A program made the translations under genes and the position numbers. Positions 8,610-48,946 of a DNA stretch of 64,000 bases are shown piece by piece (within the stretch, counting starts at the first letter, position 1; each line of letters starts with the position of its first letter). The notes beneath the pieces are model-generated. The model did not search any database and was not told the origin of the DNA. It saw only the letters and a program-made list of their open reading frames with translations. The stretch covers positions 1,116,001 to 1,180,000 of the forward strand of contig NZ_CP033169.1 in assembly GCF_003691585.1 (NCBI RefSeq), read 5' to 3'. This DNA is from Biomaibacter acetigenes (GTDB lineage Bacteria > Bacillota > Thermosediminibacteria > Thermosediminibacterales > Tepidanaerobacteraceae).

Positions 8610-9539
8610 GTGCATACTTTGCAAAGATAAATTTAAAAGATATAATAATGAAAATGGATCTGGAAACCCTGGTCAGCAGCCAAACACCACCCGATATATT
8701 TGTAGCGGATTTAACCGGCCGGGTCTGGAACTTGCCGGGTTTTTTGACTATTTTGCTTTTGAAAGAATACAGATATTGGGCATGACCGAAATATCCTTTC
8801 TGGAAAGTCTTCCTGCCAGGGTACGCCAGGAGCGCCTGGAGAAATTATTATCCTATGAGATACCATGTATTATTATAACCCGGAAACTTACGCCCCCCGA
8901 AGAAATCATTGAACTTGCAAAAAAGTATAAAAGGTATGTTTTGACCACTCCGGCAGCTACCACAAGGTTCATCAGTAAACTTACCGATTTCCTTGAAAGC
9001 GAGCTGGCTCCCAGGACCACCATGCATGGGGTGCTGGTAGACATATACGGTGTTGGCGTACTTATACTCGGAGAAAGCGGCATAGGCAAGAGCGAAACTG
9101 CTGTGGAACTCATAAAACGGGGCACCGCCTGGTGGCAGATGACGCCGTGGAGATAAAACAGGTGGCAAAAAATGTACTGGTAGGCACTGCACCTGAACTT
9201 ATAAGGTATTATCTGGAAGTGCGCGGACTGGAGTCATAGATGTCAAGACCATTTTCGGTGCAGGTGCTGTAAGAGATGATATAAAAATTGAGATGGTAAT
9301 TGAGGTGGTGGAATGGGAAAAATATAAGGAGACCGACAGACTTGGTCTTGAGGAGGAGAAAATCAATATACTGGATTCTTCCATTCCCAAAAAGACCATA
9401 CCAATACGGCCCGGAAGAAATCTTGCCGCCATACTTGAAGTTGCGGCCATGGACCACAGGTTAAAGGACATGGGCTATAATGCCGCCATTGCAATTTAGC
9501 CGCAGACTTTTTAAAGAACTCAATGAAAAAAATAAATAA
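8610..9539 (+). pseudogene. hprK: HPr kinase/phosphorylase, frame broken by several indels
   Basis: Joining frames gives the full HprK: LNRPGLELAGFFDYF, the Walker A loop [11 protein letters not shown] (9070-9102), [21 protein letters not shown] and the end at TAA 9537-9539. HprK phosphorylates Ser46 of HPr and so controls carbon catabolite repression; the matching HPr is encoded at 60571. One-base changes are inferred near 8630, 8713, 9123, 9231 and 9494. The start is uncertain (GTG 8610 or TTG 8619, near GTCGAGG). Because HprK is a key regulator and all domains are otherwise intact, sequence error is the likeliest cause. Confidence 0.85.
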
Positions 9540-9553
9540 ATGGAGGTTTACAT

Positions 9554-10608
9554 ATGCTTGATGATTTAAAAGCCATAAAGGAACTGGATAAAAGTGGCAT
9601 GCTGGACCTTATCTATCATCTACCGGACCACTGCGAGGAAGCCATAAAAATTGCGAGGGATTCCATCCGGGGTTTGAGATTTCATAACATAGTGAATGTG
9701 GTAATCACCGGCCTCGGCGGTTCGGCCATAGGCGGGGATCTTATACGAATGATCTCCCAGGACCGTTCTGTAATACCCATCCTGGTGAACAGGGATTACA
9801 CCCTTCCGGCCTTTGTGGACGAGAAAACCCTGGTTATAGCTTCCAGCTACTCCGGCAATACCGAAGAGACTCTTGCCTCTTATCAGGAGGCCTTGAAAAG
9901 AAAAGCCAAAGTGCTGGTCATAACTACGGGCGGTGAATTGAAAAAAAGAGCCCTGGCCGACGAAGTGCCGGTTATAACCATCCCGCATGGCCTGCCTCCA
10001 AGGGCGGCTCTTGGATATTCCTTCTTCCCGCTTCTGGTAGCTCTTGAAGAGCAGGGCATCGTTCCCAGAAAGCATTTTAAAATAGAGGAAACCATCAAGC
10101 TTTTAAAGGAAACCCGGGATTACCTGTATCCTGAAGTGCCCGAAACCGACAACCCTGCAAAACTTCTGGCTAAAAACTTCACGGCAAGCTTCCGGTCATT
10201 TACGGAGTATCCGGTGTTACCGAAATCGTTGCGGTAAGGTGGAAGGGACAGCTCAATGAAAACGCCAAGCATCCGGCCTTTTTCAATGTGTTTCCCGAAC
10301 TAAACCACAATGAAATAATGGGCTATGAGGGAGACAAAGACCTGCTTTCGAAAATGGAGATTGTGATTTTAAGGTCTCCTGATGAAAATGATCGTATTAG
10401 AAAACGTATTGATATAACCAAAAGTTTAATAGAGGATGTAGTAAGTGGAGTTACGGAAATATGGCCTAAAGGGGAGTCTGCTCTGGAAAGGATGCTTTAT
10501 CATATAATTTTCGGGGATTATGTAAGCGCATATCTTGCCATCCTGAACCAAAAGGACCCCACTGAAATAGATTTTATAAATGCTTTAAAGGACCGCCTGA
10601 AAAGCTAA
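9554..10608 (+). pseudogene. Bifunctional phosphoglucose/phosphomannose isomerase, one frameshift
   Basis: ATG 9554 follows GGAGG 15 bp after hprK. Two collinear pieces (9554-10237 and 10181-10608) join into about 351 residues through one missing base near 10180. SIS-domain features are clear: VITGLGGSAIGGDL, SSYSGNTEET and, after the shift, IYGVSGVTEIVAVRWKGQ and NAKHPAFFN with FPELNHNEIMGYE. The enzyme interconverts glucose-6-P, fructose-6-P and mannose-6-P. The frame break looks like a sequence error. Confidence 0.86.
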
Positions 10609-39592: not shown

Positions 39593-40318
39593 TTAATTTC
39601 CGAATTGCTGAGGTTGTAATAATCTAATTTGGAATTTTTCTTTTAAAAACTGGTATCTTCCTTTGCTCATATAAGCTTTTTCATTATAATCATAAAAACT
39701 TATCTCATATGTGTCTCGGAGGTTTTCTATTTTTTCAACCATTTCCATGTTCACAATGTATGATTTATGGACTCTATAAAAATTACCGTTTAATGATGCT
39801 TCGAGATTTTTTAGATGATCAGTGCATTCATATGCCTTTTTTTTTGTATGTATTTTTGTTTTTTCACCTAATCTTTCAATAAATATTATATCTTTAAGAT
39901 TTAAAAACAGGATACCGTTTCCAGATTTTACAGGAAGCTTTCCAATAGCTTTTAACTTACGGTTGAGTATATTGTTTTCACATTTTATTGTCACGAAATT
40001 TAATGTTTCGTGAAACCTCTCAAAGTCTATGGGTTTTAAAATGTAATCGTAAGGATGAACTTCAAAAGATTCTGTGGCATAACTTGAGTACCCGGTTATA
40101 AAAACCACAAATACATCCGGATTTAGAGAAACTGCTGTTTTTGCTACATTTATTCCATTAATGTCGGGCAGCTCTATATCCAAAAGTAAAATTTGAGGTG
40201 ATTCTTCTCTGATGATATCCTCCGCTTCTTTTCCTGTGCGAGCAGTATATATTTCTTCTATAAAGCTTGTGAGTTTTTCATCGGAATTTAATTGTATGGT
40301 ACCGTTATATTTATCCAT
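39593..40318 (-). pseudogene. LytTR-family response regulator (AgrA-like), N-terminus missing and fused to kinase tail
   Basis: From about residue 23 on this is a LytTR response regulator: phospho-Asp in ILLLDIELPD, switch Thr in FITGYSS, Lys in YDYILKPI, and a C-terminal LytTR DNA-binding domain (GNGILFLNLKDIIFIE, FYRVHKSYIVN). The first ~22 residues are not a receiver start; they are the end of the upstream histidine kinase (MDKYNGTIQLNSDEKL). A deletion has removed the kinase stop and the receiver's first strand with its acidic pair, so phosphorylation is probably lost. It is the last gene of a decayed agr-type locus. Confidence 0.8.
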
Positions 40319-40980
40319 TATCTTCTTTACTATATAAAGGCCGAAGCCTCTTGTATCTTTATGTTTTGTACTATAACCCGCCTCATATATTTTTTTAAAA
40401 TCTCTTCTTTTATAGACGATCCATTGTTTGATATTTTAACTATATAAAATTTCTGTTTTCCAGCCACTTCAAAATATATAATCCTGTTACTTTCTCTTTC
40501 CTTGACCGCTTCTATGGCATTATCGATCACATTGCCCACAACAGTGGAAAGTTCAAAGGAATCCAGTCAGGTATGATATATCCCCAAGCCATTGTATTTT
40601 ACTTCAAAATTAATATTGTTTCTCCGCATCATTTCAATTTTGACATTTATCAATGCCGTCAATGCTGTATCGCCCAACCTCAGTATTTTTTCTATGGACC
40701 TGTAATTTCCAACTATTTTGTTTAAATATTGCTTTAACTCTTCGTATTTTCCCAAAAAAGCGAGGGATTGGATAGTTTGCATATTTTCATGCCTTTCAGC
40801 CCTAAATGTCTTTATAAGCTCCTCGATATCCCTTAAATAACACGTTAACAACTCAAGTTCTGTCTCTTTTTTTGAAGATGATTCGATATATTTCAGCGAA
40901 AAGTAAAATTAAAGGAATATTATCAAGAAACCTTCCGGGATTGATTGAAATACGGTCACATACCATGGAATGGGAAACAT
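40259..40980 (-). pseudogene. AgrC-like sensor histidine kinase remnant
   Basis: ATG 40980 behind GGAGGG opens FPIPWYVTVFQSIPEGFLIIFL, like the first membrane helix of AgrC-type kinases; a TAA and then FYFSLKYIESSSKK follow in frame, so most of the membrane sensor (normally six helices) is gone. The His box (ERHENMQTIQSL), N box (GNVIDNAIEA) and G box (TRGFGLYIVKK) remain. There is an in-frame TGA at about 40567 and a one-base loss in an A-run near 40392. It has multiple lesions and cannot signal as read. It lies between agrD-like and agrA-like genes in the usual agr order. Confidence 0.78.
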
Positions 40981-41120
40981 TTCCATCCCTCCGGCAAGTC
41001 AAAATATAAATATAAAAATCAAGCATCGATCCCGAATTATCATATACTCTTTTGCCTGTCCAAACGGACCTCCGAAACATTTTAGATAATTGAGGATGAT
41101 GCCTTATTAAAATATGGCAA

Positions 41121-41250
41121 TTACTTTAAATCTTCAGGAATATCCGGCTCATAAAATATCCACATACTTTGAGGGCTAGCCCCTATAAAGGCTACAGCAG
41201 TGATGAGATGCAAGAGAGGTTAGAAAGTATGTGCGTACTTTTTTAAACAC
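41121..41250 (-). pseudogene. AgrD-like cyclic autoinducer precursor, Ser type, frameshifted
   Basis: GTG 41250 follows AAAGGGGGCGGG. The start FKKVRTYFLTSLAS is an amphipathic leader. After a two-base loss in a CT repeat (near 41205) the text continues ITAVAFIGASPQSMWIFYEPDIPEDLK and stops at 41121; the C-terminus YEPDIPEDLK is the conserved acidic tail of AgrD-type cyclic lactone peptides. The ring would be S-M-W-I-F, with Ser in place of the usual Cys (lactone, not thiolactone). Too small for standard gene finding. The agrC and agrA remnants follow on the same strand. Confidence 0.68.
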
Positions 41251-41424: not shown

Positions 41425-41459
41425 TTGCATAAGGTAATCGGATAAGCAGGGTGTGGTTG

Positions 41460-41491
41460 CCACCTCCTTGATACTAGAAGGAAGGAGGTGG
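41460..41491 (+). promoter_or_regulatory. Hairpin hiding the toxin Shine-Dalgarno sequence
   Basis: CCACCTCCTT (41460-41469) and AAGGAGGTGG (41482-41491) are a perfect 10-bp inverted repeat with a 12-base loop. The right arm is the toxin's ribosome-binding site, so the primary mRNA should be poorly translated until refolded or cut. This is a known feature of TxpA/BsrG-type toxin mRNAs. Confidence 0.8.
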
Positions 41492-41497
41492 TGCGGT

Positions 41498-41608
41498 ATA
41501 AGTACATATGAGGCTCTGTCATTAATGATTGTATCCTCTATGTTTACCGTATCGCTGATTTCCTTGATTATTGTTTTAATTAAGGCAATAAATAAAGGAA
41601 AAAAATAA
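41498..41608 (+). CDS. Small hydrophobic type I toxin (TxpA/BsrG/Hol_Tox-like), apparent ATA start
   Basis: Frame 41498-41608 encodes 36 residues: STYEALSLMI, then a single membrane helix (FTVSLISLIIVLI) and a basic tail KAINKGKK. The start STYEALSLMI is the hallmark of TxpA/BsrG and 'holin-like' type I toxins. A strong site AAGGAGGTGG ends seven bases before codon 1, but codon 1 reads ATA, not ATG; no ATG/GTG/TTG in frame precedes Glu5. Either a rare ATA start, a disabling mutation, or a sequence error. The product would insert into the membrane. Confidence 0.75.
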   Translation: MSTYEALSLMIVSSMFTVSLISLIIVLIKAINKGKK

Positions 41609-41688
41609 CAATCACCCTGCTCGGCCATAGGGTGATTGTTATTTAATAACCCGTGGCAACCGCACTTTTGCGGTTCCGATTACCTTTA
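41600..41688 (-). ncRNA. Predicted antisense antitoxin RNA (RatA/SR4-like)
   Basis: On the minus strand TTTACA (41716-41721), a 16-bp spacer and TATAAT (41694-41699) form a good promoter; the RNA would start near 41688, contain a small hairpin (AACCGC/GCGGTT) and end at the terminator shared with the toxin gene near 41600. It overlaps the toxin's last codons and 3' end, the usual layout for txpA/RatA and bsrG/SR4, where the RNA pairs with the toxin mRNA and triggers its decay. Confidence 0.62.
41608..41643. terminator. Shared bidirectional terminator of the toxin-antitoxin pair
   Basis: AACAATCACCCT (41608-41619) and AGGGTGATTGTT (41629-41640) form a perfect 12-bp stem. The minus-strand side is followed by a run of T (ATTTTTTT), the plus side by TTATTTAATAA, so it can stop both convergent RNAs. 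Confidence 0.8.
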
Positions 41689-41749: not shown

Positions 41750-42427
41750 TTAAATTATCGCACCGTCCCGCAGCCTGATGCGCCTTTTGGCGTGAGCCAT
41801 TACTTCCTGGTCGTGGGTTGCCACAACTACCGCTAAACCTTGACAGTTTAATTCATCCAAAAGTTCCATTATACTATCCCGCGTAGCAGTATCCAGATTT
41901 CCGGTAAGTTCGTCGGCCAGGAGCACCTTTGGGTTGCGTATCAAAGCCCGGGCGATAGCAACTCTCTGCTGCTCACCACCGGACAATTCTCCGGGTCTAT
42001 GTGAGACCCGGTTTGAAAGACCTACCCGCTCCATCAGTTCCATGGCCTTTTTCCTGGCTGAATTGTATTTTTCGTAGGGCAGCAGTGGAACCATCACATT
42101 TTCAAGGGCCGTAAGCTGCGGCAGCAAGCGGAAATCCTGGAATACAAATCCGACAGTCTTGGCTCGCAGTGATACCAGATCTTCCTGGCCGATATCGCAG
42201 GTGTTAAAACCTTCCATGTATACCTCCCCTTGAGTAGGTATTTCCAGCGCTCCGATCATGCGCAGCAAAGTGGATTTCCCCGAGCCGGAATGGCCTATCA
42301 CCGCAAGATAATCATCATCGTCAATATCCAGGGTTATATCCTGCAGTGCCCTTATCTCGCCATTACCCATAGGATAGATGTGTGTTACATTTTTTAACTT
42401 GACAACGGATTCTTTGTTGTTAATCAC
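41750..42427 (-). CDS. ABC transporter ATP-binding protein (MacB/LolD type)
   Basis: A 225-residue ATPase from ATG 42427, overlapping the end of the permease/peptidase gene by 4 bp. Walker A GHSGSGKSTLL, Q-loop FQDFRLLPQLTALENV, signature LSGGEQQRVAIA and Walker B VLLADELTGNLD are intact; the Asp-Glu pair is present. It belongs to the family serving FtsX/MacB-fold permeases (peptide or lipoprotein handling). The partner permease upstream is broken as read, so function may be lost. Confidence 0.9.
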   Translation of the reverse strand: MINNKESVVKLKNVTHIYPMGNGEIRALQDITLDIDDDDYLAVIGHSGSGKSTLLRMIGALEIPTQGEVYMEGFNTCDIGQEDLVSLRAKTVGFVFQDFRLLPQLTALENVMVPLLPYEKYNSARKKAMELMERVGLSNRVSHRPGELSGGEQQRVAIARALIRNPKVLLADELTGNLDTATRDSIMELLDELNCQGLAVVVATHDQEVMAHAKRRIRLRDGAII

Positions 42428-45400
42428 GGCAGTTCCCCCTTCCCGGCGATTTCCCGCAATATGCGTTCCATGAATAATATGTCTTTACCCATAGTTTGGG
42501 GTATGATGCGGTCAACAGTGTCTTTTTTGGTATTCGCAAAAGGTGACGGCCTCCATAAAGGTGCGGTCGGTATACCGGCATCCAGTAAACGGCCTCCCAG
42601 GCCCAATGGAAATGCGGGCTTAAAGTCCATATTCATCTCTTTGCCTATTTTCTCCGCCGCAGCCATCCATTCATCCGGTGTTGTCAACATATCCTGGTCT
42701 TCGGCCAGCACGCGCCGGCGGACGGAAGGATAGCCAAGGTCCCATAATCCCGAGTGGTGTTGGGGCTGTTGTCTGACAAATGGAATTAAGTCTTCGGGCG
42801 TTAAATCTTCTCCTGTAGGATTTATATCCCTTGGCCTGCCGTAGGTAATATCCTCTCTGTAACCGAAGACCAGCGGGTTATTTGACCCCAGCCGGCTCAA
42901 TGCTACCGCAGCCTTGGGCAGAGTATGCTTATCAAGGTACAGGGCCAGCCCTCCGTTATATTGAGCGTCTCCGCCGGCAGCCCACAGAATTCTGACTGGG
43001 ACGGGCAGCGGGTTTTGTTTTAATGTGCGGGCCAATAAAGCCGCTGCGGCAGCACCGCTGGCATTATCGCCGGCACCGGGACCTATGCTGCCGTGATTTG
43101 CTGCTATCAAAATATCCTGTTTTTCCGGTGATGTACCGGGGATGTCAACCCATATGTTCTCCGAATGAAAGCCCGGAATTATCTCCATCACGTCAAGGCT
43201 GAGACCGACAGGGCCGATCTCTTCCGGAAGAGTGCCCGGATTTACGCCCACCACCGCCAGCGGATCATCTTTTAATACATTTTTCAGTGACTTCCGAAAC
43301 TCTTCGGATGAAGCAGCTTCTACCAGGACTATATGCCCGCTTGTTTTTGCATTCTCAGTTTTTTCTCCTGTTAGTATTACAGCATGATCATCGTTCAAAA
43401 TATACTTGTCACCGGCTTTAGCCGTTGAGAGATCCAATGCAAGATAAGAAAAATCCAGGGAAGTGCCCGATACTTCCAGCTTCGAACCGGGGCCCAAACT
43501 TCTGACCGGCGGTATCTCTATGTGCTCGCTTTGCACATCCAAGCCTGCTTTTTGCAGCCAATGCAGCGATGGCAATCCAGCGTAAGGTTTGTGTTGGTCT
43601 TGACCGCATGTTTTTGTTTGTTTTTGAACCCTGTGCATTGTATAAGGATGATATCCAGACGTTTGTGGAAATTCCGATCGCTGCAGGAAAAGCCAAGATG
43701 AAACTGATTGAAAGCCCTGATGGTATGGAATATTCATTGTATATGGCCACTACCATCAGATATGCCATGCCAAAGGCCGATAATAACGCCACGACTACAG
43801 GAAAGAGTATCTGAGGAATGACCAGCTTCTGCAGATGTCTTAATCTCCAACCCAGCTGCTGGAGCAATACTAGGTCCCGGCGGCGAAGATCCAGGTATGA
43901 CAGGATGGAATCCAGGCAGGTCAGGCCAACCAGGATCGTCGATGCCTCACCTATAAGCATCAGCCATATCCCCGCCCTGGCGTGTATAAAATCGCCCAGT
44001 CTTGTGGTGACGGCTTGATGGGCCACCGCCGCTCGGGCCAGCCATGCAAAAATGCTTATGGTTCCGCCGATAACCAGTTGCACTGCCATAAACCGCAATC
44101 GTCCGCCATAATACATTAAATCCTTTCTTATGACAGTGCTTATACCTTCGGTTTTACGGTATTCGGAACCGCTTTTTGTGTAGGGTTTGTTTTTGGAGCC
44201 TTCACGGGATTTAAAAAATTTGGATACACCCCGGTGGGTCGTTACCGCAAATGTCATTCCGCCGGTAAAAGTAACTATCAGCCACAGCAACAAAAGCCTG
44301 TTCCATTCAACATGCAATATTTCATGAAACAATACATTGGCTGCCATTGACAATAAGGCGGCTATGAACCATATTATCAAAACTTCCAGTGATATCATTT
44401 TGGCTATGGTACCGCCCTGCCATCCCAGGGTTTTTAAAATATCCAATTCAAATTTTCTCTGCCAGAGGTATATGCTGCTCCGGTTATGGACAAATATGAA
44501 TCCAACAACAATAAACAATAAGGTCAGAGCCATGGAAAAAAGGCTGAAGATGTTTTGTATCCGGGTGGCTGCCCCCAGGCTGATCCATGATGTCTTGGCC
44601 AGGCCCAGAGGCGGAACGTCTTTATATCCCGGGATATTAAGCTTAACCTCCTGCATCGATGTGCCGGCAATTATATCCACGTGAAGGCCGGTTCGGGCCA
44701 CGATTTCTTCGGCTACCTGCCGGATTTTGGCCTGTCCTTTTTCATCAAAACGGTTGACGTCGGCCACCCTTACCCTTATCACATCGATGGGATGATCTCC
44801 TTCTATAATCTTAGCCGCTTCCAGCGTTGTAAATCCATGGGCCGCAGGCAATTGGACGGTTCCCGGTGTTATGGTGGGATGAAGTTTTACCGGCTCCGAA
44901 AGCTTGTTTCCATTTATATCGCTTTCAAGCAGCATCTCTTCCGAACCATATATGCCAAGAGGGGACTTGGCCAGCTCATTTTGCTTCGGCCCTCGGAAAC
45001 TTACCGTACCAATGGGGTTGAGCTGAAATACGGGTTTGCCCTCAGTTGCCAGATCAACAGCGGATTTCCCCTTCGCTTGAAGGTCATGAAATTGTACCTG
45101 GCCGTCACGTGTACACGTCGGCTCAGGGTAAAATATTAAAGAATTATCTTGTGCAGCTTTATAGTGGATTCCCCGGGTGGTGTAAAACTCCGTTGCCGGA
45201 GCAATGCGCTATAATCCCTGGCTGGTTGTAGAAATAATCCATTGAGGGTCGATCTCTATCCCGGTAGTTTGAAAGGCTCTAAGATATTTAGTAAGCTCGA
45301 TCTCTTTCGTTGCTTTGGTTGTTGCCGGCAACTGCAGCAATCTTTCATCAATATTCTTTTTTAAAAGTAAATCTTTCTCCGTTTTTTGAGTTCTCAAAAG

Positions 45401-46252
45401 ACGGATGGAATCTATCAAGTCCGGTGGCAAATCTAACTTTTCCTCAGTGATTTTTACACTGAGCGGGATTGGGGTTAGTTCATTTATAAGAAGAGGGATC
45501 TGATAAGCATTTGTAGTGATCTTTGCTCCAAAACTTATTTTTTCAACAGGCACAGGGCCTGGCGATAAATATCGGCCCTTTTGCAGAGCATCACTTAAGC
45601 CCACAAGTTTTGCTTCACTTTCCGGGTCGATGGCTACAAGAAAATTATATATATGAGGTAATTCGAAGTATAAAAATAATCTTTCGGAATTACTCCTCAT
45701 TGAAAAACCGTTGTTAGTATCTATTGATGAAATGGCCACTTCCGGTACTTTTAAATTAGGTAATGATGCAATAGATACAATTGTACTTTCGCCAATTTTA
45801 TATTCTTTATATCCGTCACTGGTAAAAAAATCCAAGCCCAGCCGAAGACTCTGGCCTGCGGGGCGTTTTATCTGGACACTGTCAATACTGTTTGTAAAAA
45901 ACCCCAGGGCGGCGATGGGAGCAGCTAATTCCACCCCGGGAATTGATTGTATTTCTCTCCAGGTTTCAATAGAGATTCCGCTGTCTCCATCATAATTTTT
46001 GCATACATAATTCGGTTCCATATAATCCCGATCATCTGCTCTAATAGTATTTTGGCCGGTTTCATTCGGCTTGACCAGAATATCGTAAACATCCCTTGAA
46101 TATTGAGCGATATCTTGTGTTACACTGACCCTGGTTTGCTCTAATGAAAATAACCCCATGCAAGTGCCCATATGTATGGCGAAAAGGCCTAACAGCAGGC
46201 TTGCCGCTTGAATCCTGTAATGCACCAGGGTCCTGTATATATATGCTAACAT
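42424..46252 (-). pseudogene. FtsX/MacB-type permease fused to an M28-like peptidase ectodomain, interrupted
   Basis: Read through, one gene of about 1,270 codons starts at 46252: a membrane helix (IQAASLLLGLFAIHMG), a large extracytoplasmic domain, FtsX-type helices (residues about 480-880), a helix WIAIAALAA and a C-terminal M28-like domain (GAGDNASGAAAAALLARTL). Breaks: an in-frame TAG at 45209-45211 and a frameshift near 43555. The M28 metal site is poor: ANHGSIG lacks the usual Asp after His and WAAGGDAQ lacks the Glu pair, so the ectodomain likely binds rather than cuts peptides. The ATPase gene follows with a 4-bp overlap. Confidence 0.75.
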
Positions 46253-46692: not shown

Positions 46693-46724
46693 TGAAGAAA
46701 GGTTATACAACACCTTTCTTCTTT
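46693..46724. other. Stem-loop at the end of the second agrD-like gene
   Basis: GAAGAAAGG and CCTTTCTTC form a 9-bp stem with a 10-base loop containing the stop codon of the agrD-like gene; T-rich sequence follows on the plus strand. It may be a terminator. Confidence 0.45.
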
Positions 46725-46864
46725 TTAATTGGCCCTTTCAGTATTTCCGGGACTTCGGGCTGATAAAACCATCTTATGCACAAAGGCTTAGCAGTAGTGG
46801 CCGCACTGATAAGTGTGAATAAACATACACCGATTATTATAATTTTTCTTTTTAATTCTATCAT
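46703..46864 (-). CDS. AgrD-like cyclic autoinducer peptide precursor, Cys type
   Basis: ATG 46864 follows GAAGGAGGGGAG. The 53-residue product has a basic start (IELKRK), a hydrophobic leader (IIIIGVCLFTLISAATTA), then KPLCIRWFYQPEVPEILKG. A Cys followed by bulky residues and then YQPEVPE closely resembles clostridial AgrD peptides (Cys ring of five followed by HQPEEPKSL). The predicted ring is C-I-R-W-F. No AgrB gene for processing is present, only the shared repeat upstream, and no dedicated AgrC follows. Confidence 0.68.
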   Translation of the reverse strand: MIELKRKIIIIGVCLFTLISAATTAKPLCIRWFYQPEVPEILKGPIKKKKGVV

Positions 46865-48718: not shown

Positions 48719-48744
48719 AGAATTGATAAAAGAAAAAAATGTCA

Positions 48745-48946
48745 TTTCTTCCTGTTAGGTGAGGCTCCTGTGCGAATACAGGCCACTGCCCGGAAATGTC
48801 GAGAGACACCAATGGGTTAACAGACTTGGCCGGATTAAGGTCAAATCTAATGTGGCTGGAAACAAGGTTTCCAAAGTCGCCCAGTGCTAAAACCGGTGAC
48901 GAGGGGACAAATTTTTATGCCCTTTCCTTTCAGGAGGGGCTTTTTA
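48745..48946 (+). ncRNA. M-box (ykoK) magnesium riboswitch with terminator
   Basis: The conserved M-box blocks are all here: CTGTTAGGTGAGGCTCCTGT (48752 on), GCCCGGAAATGTCGAGAGAC and ACCAATGGGTTAACAG. The 3' part ends in a terminator stem (GCCCTTTCC with GGAGGGGC, 48919-48940) followed by TTTTTAATTTTT. High Mg should favour the terminator and switch off the mgtE genes that follow, which matches known M-box logic. Confidence 0.93.

Follow-up and report, generated by a model that had tools for sequence, protein, structure and literature searches.

The minus strand between 39593 and 41250 of the window (the whole 64,000-nucleotide stretch analysed, from the Biomaibacter acetigenes genome, a single contig of 3.40 Mb) almost certainly carries a recently decayed agr quorum-sensing locus, a pseudo-operon to judge from its alignments. 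Remnants of agrD, agrC and agrA lie there in that order, and all the features listed in the original prediction are present. The alignments show the lesions themselves, intact orthologues of the locus and, at the corresponding site of a sister genome (G004), a remnant that matches it; the decay is real but biologically ordinary. Very probably, the third agr locus of this Tepidanaerobacteraceae genome has recently become a pseudo-operon: two large deletions took agrB, the sensor and the beginning of agrA, and agrD and the kinase were disabled by two small frameshifting losses and two stop codons. Set against a complete agr operon, the locus keeps an AgrD that matches TIGR04223; the AgrD frame is not open from start to stop, no AgrB (PF04647) adjoins agrD, the multi-helix AgrC sensor is reduced to ~25 codons, the GHKL kinase is interrupted by stops and a frameshift, and AgrA combines a complete LytTR domain with an incomplete receiver. 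Intact orthologues in G001 and G003, together with these disabling lesions, mark it as an agr pseudogene locus.

Relatives with related loci belong to the Tepidanaerobacteraceae: Tepidanaerobacter sp. EBM-38, a Tepidanaerobacteraceae MAG and Thermoanaerobacterales MAG AS04akNAM_31 (G001, same genus, contig DUMA01000022.1; L033/L039). The G001 locus is intact, with agrD, sensor, kinase, agrB and agrA in order; in G003, sensor and kinase form one fused AgrC of 483 aa, accompanied by AgrB and AgrA. By homology, these two loci show that the ancestral order of the window locus was agrD-sensor/kinase-agrB-agrA, with agrB placed between kinase and agrA. G001 resembles the window in gene family, in its AgrA and Ser-type AgrD (80% and 83% aa identity) and in a related type I toxin region upstream of the agr locus; it differs in its intact agrD, kinase, agrB and agrA, in its chromosomal place and in a single TAG that parts sensor and kinase.

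The agrD remnant (41121..41250, minus strand, GTG start) would have encoded a Ser-type autoinducer precursor. It scores 26.6 bits against TIGR04223 (cut-off 19 bits) in its native frame and 27.8 bits when read through the frameshift, which proved to be a loss of 2 nt between 41209 and 41208 relative to G001; the predicted frameshifted agrD-like gene is thus found both by profile and by alignment. The Pfam AgrD profile PF05931 gave no matches, controls included, whereas TIGR04223 worked. Read through, the window AgrD is 83% identical to the AgrD of G003, as it is to that of G001, and contains S-M-W-I-F-Y-E-P, with Ser five residues before the cleavage-site Tyr. By homology, the ring would be S-M-W-I-F, predicted to close as a lactone. 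Such a ring had been called rarer than a Cys ring, but the sampled class does not bear this out: its AgrD matches carry Ser at the ring position in 10/21 cases and Cys in 11/21, and every family AgrD that ends YEP(D/E)IP has Ser. A Ser ring is normal in the family of the window genome and no mark of rarity. It is also unsurprising given that a Ser-type lactone peptide has been confirmed in Clostridium thermocellum (PMC5322536); Ser rings are known in Staphylococcus pseudintermedius as well (PMC3673130).

Downstream, what survives of the AgrC membrane sensor is its first ~25 codons (40912..40986, minus strand; MEMFPIPWYVTVFQSIPEGFLIIFL), recognized by alignment and by tblastn, with 71% identity over 21 aa to an intact sensor protein of the same genome. 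They run into an in-frame TAA (40909..40911, minus strand) at the join of a deletion, placed by alignment to G001 and G003, in which 552 nt of G001 sequence are missing after 40911, so that the start of the sensor is joined to the kinase. The kinase remnant (40261..40908, minus strand) retains the last membrane helix, the DHp and the ATPase (Pfam SPOB_a and HATPase_c_5) and is 83% identical to G001 at the DNA level; the SPOB_a and GHKL matches fall in separate frames of 40986-40261 (minus strand). It lacks 9 nt at 40788/40787, in the dimerisation helix, carries a TGA at 40569-40567 and lacks 1 nt at 40404/40403, which shifts the frame. Alignment with the intact G001 orthologue, a check proposed with the original prediction, therefore places to the base the TAA, the TGA and the frameshift foreseen for a kinase deprived of most of its membrane sensor. 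The earlier list of lesions stands for everything it named; it had omitted the 9-nt loss, the ~25 surviving sensor codons and the loss of agrB.

The loss of agrB is explained by a second deletion, of 729 nt (40260..40261, minus strand; alignment to G001 L033), which takes the 3' end of the kinase gene, all of agrB beyond its first 7 codons and the 5' end of agrA. PF04647 finds no AgrB anywhere in the window; its only two matches in the genome are one at 229.6 kb and a truncated one at 2799 kb. What is left of agrA (39593..40260, minus strand) encodes a complete LytTR domain (E 8.6e-23) and a receiver without its first strand and helix: the Response_reg match starts at profile position 24 of 111, the first ~23 positions being absent. 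This AgrA is about 76% identical to that of G003 and only about 55% identical to its two paralogues in the same genome. By chance, the join leaves the kinase tail in the same frame as agrA, which yields a single open frame of 241 aa (39593..40318, minus strand), just as had been described for a regulator lacking the first receiver strand.

This open frame invites two other readings. A genuine new one-protein hybrid of kinase and regulator, of the agr type, would account for the shared frame, but the kinase upstream is broken by stops and a frameshift, part of the receiver is missing, and kinase and AgrA are separate genes in all eight loci compared. A conserved fused form in homologues, named beforehand as the result that would speak against decay, was looked for and is absent from every locus in G000 (two), G001, G003, G005, G006, G009 and G010; we consider such a hybrid scarcely conceivable. 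It is improbable, though less strikingly so, that the truncated agrA frame still works as an orphan LytTR regulator, independent of phosphorylation and binding promoters of the agr type, possibly in the intact paralogues. The frame has no stops, its LytTR domain is complete and its branch shows a nonsynonymous/synonymous ratio like that of the intact copy; given the stop-free frame and the lack of accelerated change, residual expression of a LytTR protein is indeed possible. Against such a function, the receiver has lost its first strand together with the acidic pocket, the sole ATG close to the join is one within the kinase remnant and lacks a good ribosome site, the form is present in no relative and the gene is almost erased in G004.

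That last point comes from the chromosomal site itself. The flanking genes, up to 39594 on one side and from 47311 on the other, are collinear with those of G001 and G004, and comparing the same locus in relatives, as had been advised, revealed more than intact orthologues. The space between these genes measures 524 nt in G001, of which 132 nt (97%) belong to the region upstream of the window's second AgrD, and about 120 nt in G004, with agrA pieces of 95 nt (96%) and 35-39 nt (95-97%). Because G004 keeps these scraps, the ancestor it shared with the window genome carried agr genes here, and the two lineages are losing them independently. On their own, the lesions of 1 and 2 nt might be read errors, with one assembly of the species at hand, and one of them lies within a TC repeat; that the locus is in truth intact and its lesions an artefact of sequencing or assembly is nevertheless very unlikely, as the 552- and 729-nt deletions and the nonsense substitution are hard to ascribe to read errors, the flanking genes are intact and the sister genome has decayed at the same site. 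Deletions of this size, the G004 scraps and a fusion seen in no relative all argue that the decay is biological and not a matter of indels only, as originally claimed.

The pseudo-operon also appears young. Counted by parsimony with G003 as outgroup, 403 codons of kinase and AgrA changed synonymously 44 times and nonsynonymously 34 times on the branch of the window genome, against 54 and 40 times on that of G001. An old decay was rejected, the accelerated nonsynonymous change it predicts not being seen on the window branch: a long neutral phase would have raised the ratio, yet it is close to that of the G001 branch. The counts are small and suggest that decay came late, most of the branch having been under constraint. 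Since AgrB and the sensor are gone, the AgrD frame is interrupted and the kinase is broken, we infer that the locus has lost its function and can no longer produce an autoinducing peptide or respond to one; all that may still be made is the LytTR DNA-binding remnant, without regulated phosphorylation. Any agr-type signalling that persists would run through the intact locus at 226-232 kb. The window thus records the stepwise death of agr in an anaerobic, clostridium-like lineage, of which close relatives carry intact, partly deleted and almost erased versions and in which one intact paralogue remains.

The surrounding 7.7-kb island holds other elements. A second AgrD-like gene, Cys-type and open (46703..46864, minus strand; 53 aa, TIGR04223 25.7 bits), lies there without agrB, agrC or agrA. 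It has a basic tail (KPLCIRWFYQPEVPEILKGPIKKKKGVV). Related copies lie at 326 kb and, with a TAG, at 2802 kb, and others in G001 and G004; no copy was seen immediately beside an agrB of its own. Upstream of agrD, a Hol_Tox/PepG1-like type I toxin (41453-41640, plus strand) lies opposite a probable antisense RNA, with a promoter-like site on the minus strand at 41721-41694; related copies of the region occur in G001 and G004. The toxin is probably dead too, since its expected start is ATA where three copies from relatives have ATG. Genes for an FtsE/FtsX-like ABC transporter and an M28-type peptidase (41750-46252, minus strand) also belong to the island and are missing at the site in G001 and G004. 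Further on, an M-box magnesium riboswitch (48744-48913, plus strand; 135 bits) precedes two adjacent MgtE-type-like transporter genes.

Elsewhere, the genome has seven AgrD-like sequences in all and two further agr loci. The one at 226-232 kb (L016) is intact and ordered AgrD, AgrD, sensor, AgrB, AgrA, kinase. The other, at 2798-2803 kb (L017), has intact sensor, AgrA and kinase, and its AgrB (L017:4745-5160) bears an internal deletion of ~70 residues, so that this locus is also decaying; the lost segment includes a His and a Cys that we take to match the active site known from S. aureus AgrB. Just upstream of agr, at L016:5354-6185, two small genes encode sigma-70 region 2-like and region 4-like parts as separate proteins; beside them is the gene of a conserved protein of ~105 aa without family match, and similar arrangements occur in L017, L034 and L138; the pair presumably recalls the divided sigma factor SigO/RsoA.

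AgrC is divided between two proteins in most of the family's intact loci, a 158-aa membrane sensor without Pfam or NCBIfam match and a two-helix kinase (L016:7065-7541 and 8925-9785 in the 226-kb locus, where the kinase has 286 aa; others in L035/L036/L037/L038), fused only in G003. Sensor stop and kinase start adjoin or overlap in G005, G006 and G010; in G009, as in the 226-kb locus, agrB and agrA stand between them. In the fused G003 protein, residues 63-442 are covered by the staphylococcal AgrC model from profile position 12, and the separate kinase is covered only from position 135, which locates the division within the membrane sensor. One could suppose that a two-protein AgrC is the family's agr receptor, fixed across several genera, the window locus being a decaying split-receptor copy whose remnant LytTR may act on the intact loci; this we judge quite improbable. 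A limited literature search returned nothing pertinent on a divided AgrC, nor on agr in Tepidanaerobacter or Biomaibacter, and the two-protein loci offer a testable variant of the classic receptor.

Among known systems, the 226-232-kb paralogue shares AgrD ring type, AgrB, AgrA and GHKL kinase with the window locus and differs in being intact, in gene order and in the low identity of its AgrA. Staphylococcus aureus agrBDCA has the same type of AgrD, AgrC and AgrA components, but with a thiolactone ring, another gene order, a single-chain AgrC and all four genes working. The AgrD of the thermophilic clostridium C. thermocellum, Clo1313_2818, is likewise Ser-type and yields a pentapeptide lactone established by mass spectrometry (PMC5322536); unlike the window remnant, it gives a functional peptide, and no agr operon adjoins it.
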